This document shows positions 2,608 through 41,870 of a stretch of DNA of 64,000 bases, one piece after another. The translations under genes and the position numbers were made by a program. Source of the stretch: Lumbricus rubellus (Eukaryota; Annelida; Clitellata; Crassiclitellata; Lumbricidae); assembly GCA_945859605.1 (NCBI GenBank), contig OX243822.1:12701533-12765532 (forward strand), written 5' to 3'. How positions within the stretch are numbered: position 1 is the stretch's first letter; each line of letters opens with the position of its first letter. The notes beneath the pieces are model-generated. The model made no database searches. It was not told where the DNA came from and saw only the letters and a program-made list of their open reading frames with translations.

Positions 2608-5600
2608 ATGGACAGCAGCTACGAAATCGGAGGCGATGGTTGTGCGTCGAAAGTGTTTGTGTTGCATAGTAACGATGAGGCGGATGTTGCAAGAAATATG
2701 AAAGAAGAACTCATAAAGAGAGGCTTCAGTACCTCAATATATTTGGACGATGTGCTGCCAGGCTCGTCCAGCGTTCTCGAAATCTCGAATGCCATCTACA
2801 AGTAATAATAATATTCGTTTATTAACATTCCATCTGGCAAACCGCAGAATGATTACAGGTACACTGGTACAGGTTATACGAAATACGGCCCACTATAGCA
2901 CGACACGCATGTCGGTTTTACAGCTGTGGGTTCGGCTTAACACTAATGGCCTAAGTGCTGGATCACTCCTGGTTCGGCCAAGCCAGAAGTGGGAGAAGCT
3001 ATCTTATTTTCAGCAGAACCCGAGTCAAGCAACACAACAGAATGCGCCACTGGCAGCTAACAGAAAATTCAAATAAATTTTTGCTCTGTGTTAGGCTTGA
3101 ACCTGGGTCGCGTGGATGACTCTCAGTTTATCGACCAGAGCTATCTCAACTGAGCTACGGACCCACCCTAGTGGGTGAGTTTATTCCAGTGTGAGAATTA
3201 TGGAAAAATAACTGGGAGGATTGGATCCACATGAAAATGAGGTCTGACAAACAGACTTTACTATGGGGCTCTAAGAAAGAGTGGTGGTTGCAGGGCTTTT
3301 TAAGGGGATTTTCAGGACTGCACAACTCCTCAACAGACTGCTGAAGGCCTTGGTGTGGCCAGTGGCGACATACGGGTGTGAGGCATGGACATTAAAAAAA
3401 GAAGAGGAAAGACGTATACAAGCATTCGAGAACAAATGTCTTAGAAAGACACTAAGAATCCCATGGACAAAAAAGCTGACCAACGAACAGGTGTACACCA
3501 CAGCAGGAACAAAGCAAGAACTGTTGATCCACGTAAAAACAAGAAAGTTGCGATACTTTGGACACGTCATGAGACAACAAAAGGACAGCATAGAAAACAG
3601 CCTGATGACGGGATTGATGGAGGGGAAAAGAAGTAGAGGAAGACCTAGAACGGCATGGATAGACAACATCATGGAATGGACAGGACTTTCGGGAAGGAGA
3701 CTAATGAACATGGCAGGAGATAGACAACTGTGGAAGATGCTCATCCATTCGTGCAGCCAACCGTCGCAGAGCGACGATGGCGGAATGACATGACATGACA
3801 TGACAACTCCTTTCCTTTCCCATCATCATTATGGCAAATTACTTAATATAGGAGGATTATAACCTTTTTTGCTAGTTTTAACTGTACAGAAGTGCTTCAA
3901 CAACTGCACATTTTGTGTACAACTGCACGTTAAAAACCCTGATTGGTTGAAAACCCCAACCCCTCGCCCTGGTTGGTTGAAAACCCCAACCCCTCGCCCT
4001 GGTTGGTTGAAAACCCCAACCCCTCACCCTGGTTTATTCATTCAAATTCAAATTCTCGCCCCGGTTATTCACTCAAGTGTCTTTTGCAAATCAAGCCTAG
4101 CCGTAACCACACTTTGTTAGTGAGACCAAAGGGAAATGAAACTGTTTGGCAAGTACAATATTTAACAACGAGCAGGTGGCCCAAAGGGAGTCATAAAAAG
4201 GCCTAAGCTCCGTTAACAATGGCCAACCTAGAATGAGCATTTGATTATAATGGTCATAAAAGGTAGGATATATACTCGAGATATTACCACCGAGAGTCTT
4301 TGTTTGAATGCACTGGTATGAGAGTGGGCCTAAAGTGTCTACATACAGAATAAAAACCTCACTTAATAAACGTAAAGCTTACAGTTGTAAGATGGATTGA
4401 GCATTATTTATGAGTAACCACCCAGTGTTCTTTACATCGAGTACACATAAAAAATTTTATTTGGAAACGTTGCAAAACAGGCCTTGCTTTAAACCCTCGA
4501 ACCCCCACACGCACAGGGCCGGTGTCACGAAATAAAGTCTCCCCCCGAAACAGAGTCTCCCCCTTGCTGATACAGAGTCTCCGGGGGGAGACTCTGTACC
4601 GGAACAAAGTCTCCCCCATCGAAATAGAATCTCCCCCTCTACGATACAAAGTCTCCCCCTACTAAAAATCGCCCCTCTATATTTCTGATAATAATATGTT
4701 TATTTGTGAATATAAATAGGCTAATATTGGTGTTGAGGCCTATTTAGTGTAATCGGACATGATGTTTTAAAATAAAATATATATAAAAAGTATGAAGTAA
4801 TAATTGTTGTAAGCTTAGCCTACAGCATAAGGCCTAAATGTAGGCCTAACATGCAGGCCATAATAAGACCACTAGGCCTAGTATGTCGGTCCGCGTAGGT
4901 TATGTTACTGAAACGCAGTTTAGACATTGTTAGGCCTATAGGCCCTATAGATTTAGCAGGCCTACATTGTCATGTTAAAAATAAATGGCTCTGACTAAAT
5001 ACAGGCATTTCACATATATTTTAGGCCGTATTTAGCTAGGGTGCATAAAACAATTCTGCAATTATCAATCTCTATCCGATTAGCCTACCTAGGGTCTAAT
5101 TAGGCTAGGCCTACTTACAGGCCATAAATTATAGATAGGTCAGAAGCCTAAGCTATCTTTAAACATGTATGCATAGTCCCACTTGTTTAGACTATTATTT
5201 ATTTTATTTGTATCAATTATCCATTTCTATCGCGTCCCTTCAAGCTCACTAGTCAGAGGCGCTCCTGACTACAGCGCGGATACTGCATCGGAGTTAGACC
5301 TACACGCCGAAGCGCCCGATCATTTGCAAATGAAGGACTTGCTCAAGGTCCCTTCGCGGCGGCTTGAGGTGGATTTGAACCTTCAACCTCCGGCTGCAAG
5401 GCAACGAAATACCCACTACACCACCGCGCTCCACAATAAATGAAAGGCAGCACAATACCATAGGCCTACCTGACAGGAAAAATAAAGTCAGGAAGAATTT
5501 GAAGTGGTAGGCTTATGATAACAGAGCGTTTCGGCGTGTAACTCCGATGCAGTACACATTTATATTAAATGATCCTTTATACGATTTTTTCGTGAAAGTT

Positions 5601-40900: not shown

Positions 40901-41870
40901 TCGCCCAGCTGGACAAAGGACAGATGACAAACGAACGCCACACTTTCAAAGAGGTCGTCAGTCAAATTCTCAACTACGAGTCTATGAAGAACTGTAGAGG
41001 AAAATATCTTCTTATCGACTATCGAGGTATTATAGATCAGGTTAAATAGAATTGCCTATTCCACTTGAATCTCATCAAGTATTGTGTATTAGACCTACTT
41101 GTGTATGAATGGGTTAACCATTAGACCGGCTTGCTAAGCGGGATATGTCCTCATTGAGGGCGCATTTTCCTCCTTAAATTCCTGTAAATATACTGTGTTA
41201 TTACAATACCGAATGAGGAAACATGTCAATATTCACCTCTGAGTAATACCATGTAGTCTCTGCAAAGTCTGCATATACATAGGCCTACTTTGTGAATAAT
41301 AGAACTGTCTTATGTCTGATTTGTTTATCGTTCATGAAAAGACATAATGCTACGTCAAAAAGCAATTTTATGGTTAGATATAGTGTCCATAATTGCTTCT
41401 ATAAAGAGCACATGTTTCGACCACTGTACTATGTCATGCCCGTCCCAAGCCTGGATAAAATGGGAGGGTAACGAACATGTATAGGCCTACCCAGTGCACC
41501 ACCGCGATCCACAGTGAATCTTGTACATCAAACTGAACTTTCTTTCACCAATAACTACACGAATTCATGCGCTGAATTAATCTATGTTTCCCGCCTTGCA
41601 GATGAAGACGAGCAGACGACTTCACACAAGTGGACAAAGGAAACTCTTTCGGAGGTCGTCGCCCGAGAAGTGGAGAACGACATGATTGCCAGTAACTGTG
41701 CTCAGCTTTACCTCTTTCCAGTGGAGTCAGTACCAGCTACGGCTGAGTCAGTACCAGCTACGGCTGAGTCAATACCAGCAACGGCTGAGTCGATTTTTCA
41801 GCGATTGCTCAATCGACTCCGTTGCTTGTGGCTGATTCTAACTGAGCGCCGGTTGCGTTTAATTCGTTGA
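34976..41870 (+). CDS. TIR-STING fusion protein, gene C (retains TIR catalytic Glu)
   Basis: Exons 34976-35307, 35721-35947, 39388-39483, 39957-40189, 40831-41026 and 41602-41870: 1353 nt, 450 residues, GT-AG, phases 2,1,1,0,1. An acidic leader (about 1-58, MAEAQDLAEDTRVVAGVDEE and beyond), absent from A and B, ends in a duplicated NIWSS. The TIR domain spans about 60-186, with DVFVSHSSNQMDVARELK, BB loop EDDVPAGSS, and Glu132 (SEYRW) at the NADase position. The STING domain has GVGLAWSYFYGYL (Y212) and RAANCERCYKS, keeping residues equivalent to human R232, R238 and Y240, with E304 and T307 in MEFATPL. The tail carries three near-repeats of (V/I)PATAES and a basic Leu/Arg-rich end. M23 of the longer frame (34976) was chosen as start; 34910 is the alternative. 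The most complete candidate for a cyclic-dinucleotide-triggered NADase in the array. Confidence 0.91.
36085..36188. repeat. (AG)n microsatellite
   Basis: About 100 bp of AG with one AA interruption, in intron 2 of gene C. Another repeat, AAAT then AATG, lies at 37117-37180. Confidence 0.97.
37311..38546. mobile_element. Possible hAT-like element in intron 2 of gene C
   Basis: The left side begins CAGTTGTAGCTACCATGTGT and contains CACACGGGCCCACG and CAGGGGCCCATGAAG. The right side reads the reverse complement of CAGTGGCGTAGCTAGC, CATGGGCCCGTGTGCAG and CATGGGCCCCTG. The inverted similarity is clear, but no matching 8-bp duplication is visible and there is no transposase frame. Confidence 0.45.
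38788..39004 (+). mobile_element. tRNA-derived SINE, family I
   Basis: GGGGCACGGTGGTGTAGTGG head, box B GAGGTTCGAATCCACC, tail GGGAGCGCCTCTGAGTAG then AAAGGGGCGCTATAAC. One of the best-preserved copies of the family. Confidence 0.88.
39346..39378. mobile_element. Truncated hAT end next to the exon 3 acceptor of gene C
   Basis: CAGGGCTGTTTTTTAAGGAA followed by TTAGTACTGCACAAC matches the left end of the 3291-3941 family. It stops about 10 bp before the acceptor of exon 3, so the element fragment occupies the likely branch-point and pyrimidine region. Confidence 0.6.
39524..39890. repeat. (TTGA/CTGA)n microsatellite in intron 3 of gene C
   Basis: About 365 bp of TTGA and CTGA tetramers filling most of the intron between exons 3 and 4. 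Confidence 0.97.

Follow-up and report, generated by a model that had tools for sequence, protein, structure and literature searches.

Three TIR-STING genes in tandem on chromosome 12

The earthworm Lumbricus rubellus carries on chromosome 12 three tandem genes, here called A, B and C, which all lie on the plus strand and each encode a TIR domain followed by a STING ligand-binding domain (LBD). The DNA analysed, referred to as the window, is a stretch of 64,000 nucleotides (contig OX243822.1, positions 12,701,533 to 12,765,532; chromosome 12, 12.70-12.77 Mb) and its sequence holds zero N. An echinoderm origin, which the look of the sequence had suggested, was rejected, since the mitochondrial COX1 has AAA for Lys and ATA for Met at conserved sites, in agreement with an invertebrate code other than that of echinoderms. 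Gene A occupies window positions 2608-17032, gene B 21417-26509 and gene C 34976-41870. Each gene has six exons that join into a single open frame without internal stops, giving proteins of 370 (A), 374 (B) and 450 (C) residues. The intron phases 2, 1, 1, 0 and 1 are common to the three genes, and GT-AG borders are found at all 18 exons, which are listed here in window coordinates.

2608-2801, plus strand: gene A exon 1, start codon and first TIR half (frame, phase 2 donor, TIR_2 match of the spliced protein)
12961-13184, plus strand: gene A exon 2, second TIR half; catalytic-glutamate column GGA (Gly) at 13022-13024
13922-14011, plus strand: gene A exon 3, start of the STING domain (GLAWSYFYGYL)
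14533-14762, plus strand: gene A exon 4, STING LBD; equivalents of Arg232, Arg238 and Tyr240
15285-15480, plus strand: gene A exon 5, STING LBD; equivalents of Glu260, Thr263 and Pro264
16854-17032, plus strand: gene A exon 6, C-terminal tail and stop
21417-21604, plus strand: gene B exon 1, start codon and first TIR half
23496-23719, plus strand: gene B exon 2, second TIR half; catalytic-glutamate column GGA (Gly) at 23557-23559
24431-24526, plus strand: gene B exon 3, start of the STING domain
25043-25275, plus strand: gene B exon 4, STING LBD
25478-25676, plus strand: gene B exon 5, STING LBD
26325-26509, plus strand: gene B exon 6, C-terminal tail and stop
34976-35307, plus strand: gene C exon 1, N-terminal extension and first TIR half; putative start at the first in-frame ATG of the open frame
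35721-35947, plus strand: gene C exon 2, second TIR half; catalytic-glutamate column GAG (Glu) at 35782-35784
39388-39483, plus strand: gene C exon 3, start of the STING domain
39957-40189, plus strand: gene C exon 4, STING LBD
40831-41026, plus strand: gene C exon 5, STING LBD
41602-41870, plus strand: gene C exon 6, C-terminal tail with a short internal repeat (SVPATAE) and stop

Matches to the Pfam profiles TIR_2 and STING_LBD score above the curated thresholds in all three proteins, with E values for A, B and C of 5.6e-9, 3.8e-10 and 1.3e-19 (TIR_2) and of 2.4e-34, 1.4e-31 and 2.3e-29 (STING_LBD). A preliminary description of this DNA had claimed a TIR-STING fusion in an animal genome, present as a locally duplicated and diverging set of three same-strand, six-exon genes with equal phases and 370, 374 and 450 residues between positions 2608 and 41870. 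The gene models bear this out in an earthworm: both domains are present in every model, the STING match of exons 3-6 is significant in all three, and the tandem copies are 63-71% identical in protein. At that level of identity they are too divergent to be haplotypes of one gene, and this explanation was rejected. Chance origin of the array was also ruled out, as protein B, searched against a six-frame translation of the entire genome (24 candidates, every one scored), matched each of the 18 window exons once. These account for 18 of the 23 matches; the remaining five are weak (E 0.01-0.43) and fall on STING exons on chromosomes 3 and 4, so that this search found no further TIR-STING copy of the window type.

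It could be argued that exons 1-2 (TIR) and exons 3-6 (STING) belong to separate neighbouring genes, but we regard this as highly improbable. The phases join the two parts in frame in all three genes. Outside the L. rubellus genome, four relatives among 12 matches (P0001, P0002, P0003 and P0005, all from one source collection, 'lgn') hold both domains in one uninterrupted open reading frame (ORF), and P0001 is 65% identical to C. Furthermore, P0003 and P0006 are identical over 144 residues and then diverge at the TIR/STING junction. The ORF of P0006 lies on contigs of up to 6.4 kb, which we read as genomic, and the pair looks like a cDNA and its gene, resembling a spliced junction. Aligned with P0001 and P0002, the 15 exon junctions of A-C take up equivalent positions, and nine of them (junctions 1-3) are gap-free over eight residues on each side; these include the exon 2/3 junctions, where TIR and STING meet. 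There is a gap just before junction 4 and a one-residue gap just after junction 5.

Intron 1 of gene A is about 10 kb long, and most of it is occupied by a near-perfect inverted repeat (window 4514-12177) with arms of about 3.3 kb each that are piecewise 97-100% complementary. This is either a fold-back element or a recent inverted insertion. Just 3' of gene A, in another frame, lies a hydrophobic stretch, FAYFSCVFNLILSGGVILIYQQKIRKK (window 17119-17199, plus strand). The tail of P0002 finishes with a hydrophobic helix, and tail anchoring of some TIR-STINGs is therefore possible; when aligned to the stretch behind gene A, this tail gave no alignment there.

The ligand pocket and the catalytic glutamate

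At ten positions lining the pocket of human STING, A, B and C are identical to each other. Human numbering is used for them. Nine of the ten match three solved STING chains in the alignment, and the tenth, Thr267, is Ser in all three copies, as it is in 8gjz and 8ydn. The pocket is thus conserved at the positions checked, and A-C may bind cyclic dinucleotides. The preliminary description also spoke of an expanded sensing repertoire that signals through TIR. The present results do not establish this, as the identity of the ten positions gives no hint of three ligand specificities and two of the three copies lack the catalytic glutamate of the TIR domain. The nearest known kind is the oyster TIR-STING, to which that description had also pointed. 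In PDB sequence searches with A, C and P0001, the best match of C is the Crassostrea gigas TIR-STING (6wt6/6wt7, E 3e-25), which is also the best match of P0001 (E 4e-23). A structure model of P0001, made from a seven-sequence alignment (predicted local distance difference test score 79.8), has as its first fold match 6wt7, bound to 2'3'-cyclic GMP-AMP.

The TIR halves differ more from each other than the STING halves do. Pairwise identity among A, B and C is 55-60% in TIR and 74-82% in STING, and in each of the three pairs STING is the more conserved half. In helix alpha-C, the catalytic-glutamate column holds Glu in C, and Gly in A and B, encoded by the same codon, GGA. Eight of the 12 TIRs in the alignment have Glu, namely C, the oyster protein, P0001, P0002, P0003, P0005 and both chromosome 3 TIRs described below, and P0007 and MyD88 have Gln; this table leaves out P0006, P0013, P0016 and P0018. 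Placing the column at a WAMDH motif, by which all three copies would have lost the residue, was rejected because the alignment with the oyster protein puts the Glu at SEYRW in C. A and B are sisters with a support of 99 in the STING tree and 100 in the TIR tree, the sole firm grouping, and the change from Glu to Gly probably happened once, in their common ancestor. As Glu is replaced by Gly, the TIRs of A and B should not be NAD+-cleaving enzymes (NADases), and these two proteins are predicted to signal without such activity.

Despite this loss, both TIRs seem to be under constraint, as judged from the ratio of nonsynonymous to synonymous substitution (dN/dS) between them. This ratio is 0.49 (0.30-0.88) for TIR, 0.35 (0.22-0.58) for STING and 0.25 for the tail, and the upper bootstrap bounds stay under 1. 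These values bear on the possibility that A and B are decaying copies and that C alone is functional. A and B do differ most in TIR (60% identity), B is short of one residue beside the DD motif, and the long intron 1 of gene A is mostly inverted repeat. However, in both genes the open frame is complete, every splice site is in place and the ten pocket residues checked are conserved, and together with the dN/dS values this makes decay improbable in our opinion.

We think that the locus is probably an array of three tandem genes for TIR-STING receptors that assemble upon binding of a dinucleotide, with C as a possible NADase and A and B as scaffolds or tuners of C. The gene structures, domains, relatedness, pocket conservation, the Gly of A and B and the dN/dS values below 1 are observed; we infer the ligand, the clustering, the enzymatic or scaffold output and the division of labour among A-C. 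In such a scheme, cGAS-like enzymes of the same animal would make a cyclic dinucleotide, and the soluble STING half would dimerise and bind it. The ligand would then close the STING dimer and the receptors would line up so that their N-terminal TIRs meet, as suggested by the oyster and bacterial TIR-STINGs. Clustered TIRs of gene C, in which the Glu is kept, could cleave NAD+. The TIRs of A and B may serve other TIR proteins as scaffolds or modulate C as its partners. A related possibility is a dominant-negative or decoy function of A and B, which would bind the dinucleotide and dampen the response of C through mixed assembly. The intact pocket positions and the missing catalytic Glu in both would suit this, but scaffold signalling fits equally well, and we consider such a decoy function unlikely.

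Several observations weigh against the array reading as we have put it. Four residues before the Glu, C has Tyr where the oyster protein has Trp, which makes NADase activity of C uncertain. When the TIR of C alone is compared with the PDB, the next match after the oyster TIR-STING is MyD88, a scaffold TIR (E 1.3e-6), with a bacterial TIR close behind (E 3.7e-6). With A as the query, plain STING chains rank higher than the oyster TIR-STING, 6wt6 coming seventh (E 3.7e-20), and the structure model is that of the relative P0001 instead of A, B or C. The trees also disagree on C, which groups with P0001/P0002 in the STING tree (support 77) and with A/B in the TIR tree (82). The Tyr and the MyD88 match would both suit the alternative that all three TIRs, including that of C, are pure MyD88-like scaffolds, in which case the Glu of C would be a relic and its loss from A and B neutral. 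Conservation of this Glu in 8 of 12 aligned TIRs is more than expected of a relic, however, and we find this alternative doubtful, albeit worth keeping in mind. Across the genome there are 43 TIR_2 matches, several in tandem clusters (G000:C2, C9, C16, C19 and others).

A related gene set with caspase exons on chromosome 3

The TIR-STING family extends beyond the window. STING_LBD matches outside it lie on chromosome 3 (3.87-3.98 Mb, minus strand), on chromosome 4 and at a second place on chromosome 12, and the chromosome 3 genes form a second lineage with caspase exons.

G000:C3 3,870,235-3,879,577, minus strand: predicted TIR-STING-caspase gene, with partial sister loci up to 3,981,759 (L016-L027)

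A TIR exon is present in two of the chromosome 3 copies, joined to STING with phases 1, 1, 0 and 1, the same as in introns 2-5 of the window genes. The chromosome 3 genes differ from the window genes in having TIR in one exon, whereas the latter have an extra intron inside TIR, and in an altered start of the LBD (ESACNYFYGFL in chr3_1). They also differ in having caspase exons behind STING, with a complete caspase domain in one locus. In all three loci STING is followed, in the same order and strand and in frame, by a linker exon and two caspase exons; the splice sites of these models were chosen by homology. In chr3_1, a small-subunit exon and stop complete a TIR-STING-caspase model of 618 residues, which matches TIR_2 (2.6e-8), STING (2.1e-30) and Peptidase_C14 (5.7e-47) and carries THG and QAC at what we take to be the catalytic His and Cys sites. 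The partial models chr3_2 and chr3_3 have small-subunit matches downstream, and no TIR exon was found for chr3_3 in the stretch examined. Likewise, the stretch examined beside the chromosome 4 STING held no caspase exons. At the second chromosome 12 STING locus, caspase-like exons are located 20-40 kb behind STING on the same strand (G000:C15:31,375,889-31,382,727 and C15:31,336,449-31,355,364, minus strand). The window genes have no Peptidase_C14 match, and none of the 65 genome matches to this profile lies inside the window.

A similar arrangement is seen in an outside species, where P0017, an ORF of 461 residues, combines STING (1.9e-18) and caspase (Peptidase_C14, 2.7e-35) and P0018 holds TIR and the start of STING, the two lying on a contig or contigs of 18,155 bases. 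We read them as likely one gene split by a frame change, and thus as a TIR-STING-caspase in another organism. It is possible, on the other hand, that the chromosome 3 loci consist of separate caspase genes adjoining STING genes. Introns of up to 16.6 kb inside the chromosome 3 models speak for this and against a single protein, as do the 65 Peptidase_C14 exon matches in the genome, many of them outside the chromosome 3 STING loci. Still, judged by sequence, the sister gene set seems to have a caspase as an added part, and sensing of the signal and the response to it may thus be combined in a single protein. On balance we lean towards two dinucleotide-receptor lineages with built-in effectors, one comprising the Glu-bearing and perhaps enzymatic C and the catalytically dead A and B, and the other a chromosome 3 receptor that would itself be a caspase activated by clustering. 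If this is true, the caspase-bearing receptor would activate a protease directly, bypassing TBK1, IRF3 and adaptor steps, in a one-protein path from cyclic dinucleotide to cell death, and the same receptor would bear an NADase-type and a protease effector.

Candidate upstream enzymes, neighbouring genes and known systems

The genome also has proteins of the Mab-21 family, which are candidates for the enzymes upstream of these receptors. At least 150 scored matches (of 453 candidates) exceed the cut-off, many of them clustered and in long open frames, and about 9 of the 150 span nearly the whole profile. One L. rubellus protein of this family has cGAS-like receptor 1 as its best PDB match (E 1.9e-18, over its C-terminal part). 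The cGAS-like active-site motif GS...E-x-D is kept in four of five sampled loci, L043 being without it, and the sampled frame L038, inspected by eye, showed no clear nucleotidyltransferase core. We therefore make no claim that cGAS-like receptors number more than 150. Ankyrin-like repeats occur in one of the sampled loci.

Between genes B and C, on the minus strand (window 29628-31322), lies an open frame of 564 residues with a rhodopsin-family G protein-coupled receptor domain. Three related tandem ORFs follow the array on the minus strand (44325-45212, 51931-52782 and 58031-58747), with 78-87% DNA identity to the first copy over repeat blocks and no Pfam match at E 0.01. An Ensembl annotation with 33,426 genes is cited in the L. 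rubellus genome paper (PMC11015115), and A, B and C may already figure in it.

TIR-STING in an animal is already known from the oyster; what is new here is the Glu/Gly split among the copies of one array and the TIR-STING-caspase lineage. Searches of open-licence papers turned up no annelid TIR-STING, no STING-caspase protein and no such Glu/Gly split. As one TIR of the tandem set bears the Glu and two lack it, the set amounts to a natural experiment on enzyme versus scaffold function of an animal TIR. TIR-STING-caspase, if confirmed, would place the sensing of cyclic dinucleotides and a caspase in a single animal protein.

Compared with vertebrate STING (TMEM173), A-C share the ligand-binding domain and the pocket residues but have TIR in place of the N-terminal transmembrane region. 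Membrane helices in A-C were ruled out by hydropathy, the best 19-residue value being 1.14-1.36 (residues 180-230). The tail of vertebrate STING carries the TBK1/IRF3 motifs PLPLRT and pLxIS, and the tails of A, B and C, scanned for the patterns PL.LR and L.IS, contain neither. The C. gigas TIR-STING (6wt6, 6wt7) has the same order, an N-terminal TIR and then the STING LBD, and shares with the earthworm copies the equivalents of Tyr163, Tyr167, Arg232, Arg238, Tyr240 and Glu260. In contrast, the equivalents of Ser162, Thr263 and Pro264 in the earthworm copies are missing from the aligned oyster segment, P0001 is 23-25% identical to 6wt7, and the earthworm set is a tandem triplicate in which two copies are without the catalytic Glu. 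The bacterial TIR-STING of cyclic-oligonucleotide-based antiphage signalling systems (SfSTING) also has the TIR-STING order, but A-C match animal STING_LBD strongly, whereas with the prokaryotic STING domain PF20300 A is below cut-off (E 0.092) and B and C are unmatched at E up to 1. According to PMC10732462, TIR-STING is rare in eukaryotes, its TIR has an unclear role there, and the animal fusion is thought to be convergent with the bacterial one. SfSTING is described as a filament-gated NADase that depends on the catalytic Glu84 (PMC9402430), and as such it offers a model for what the product of gene C might do.

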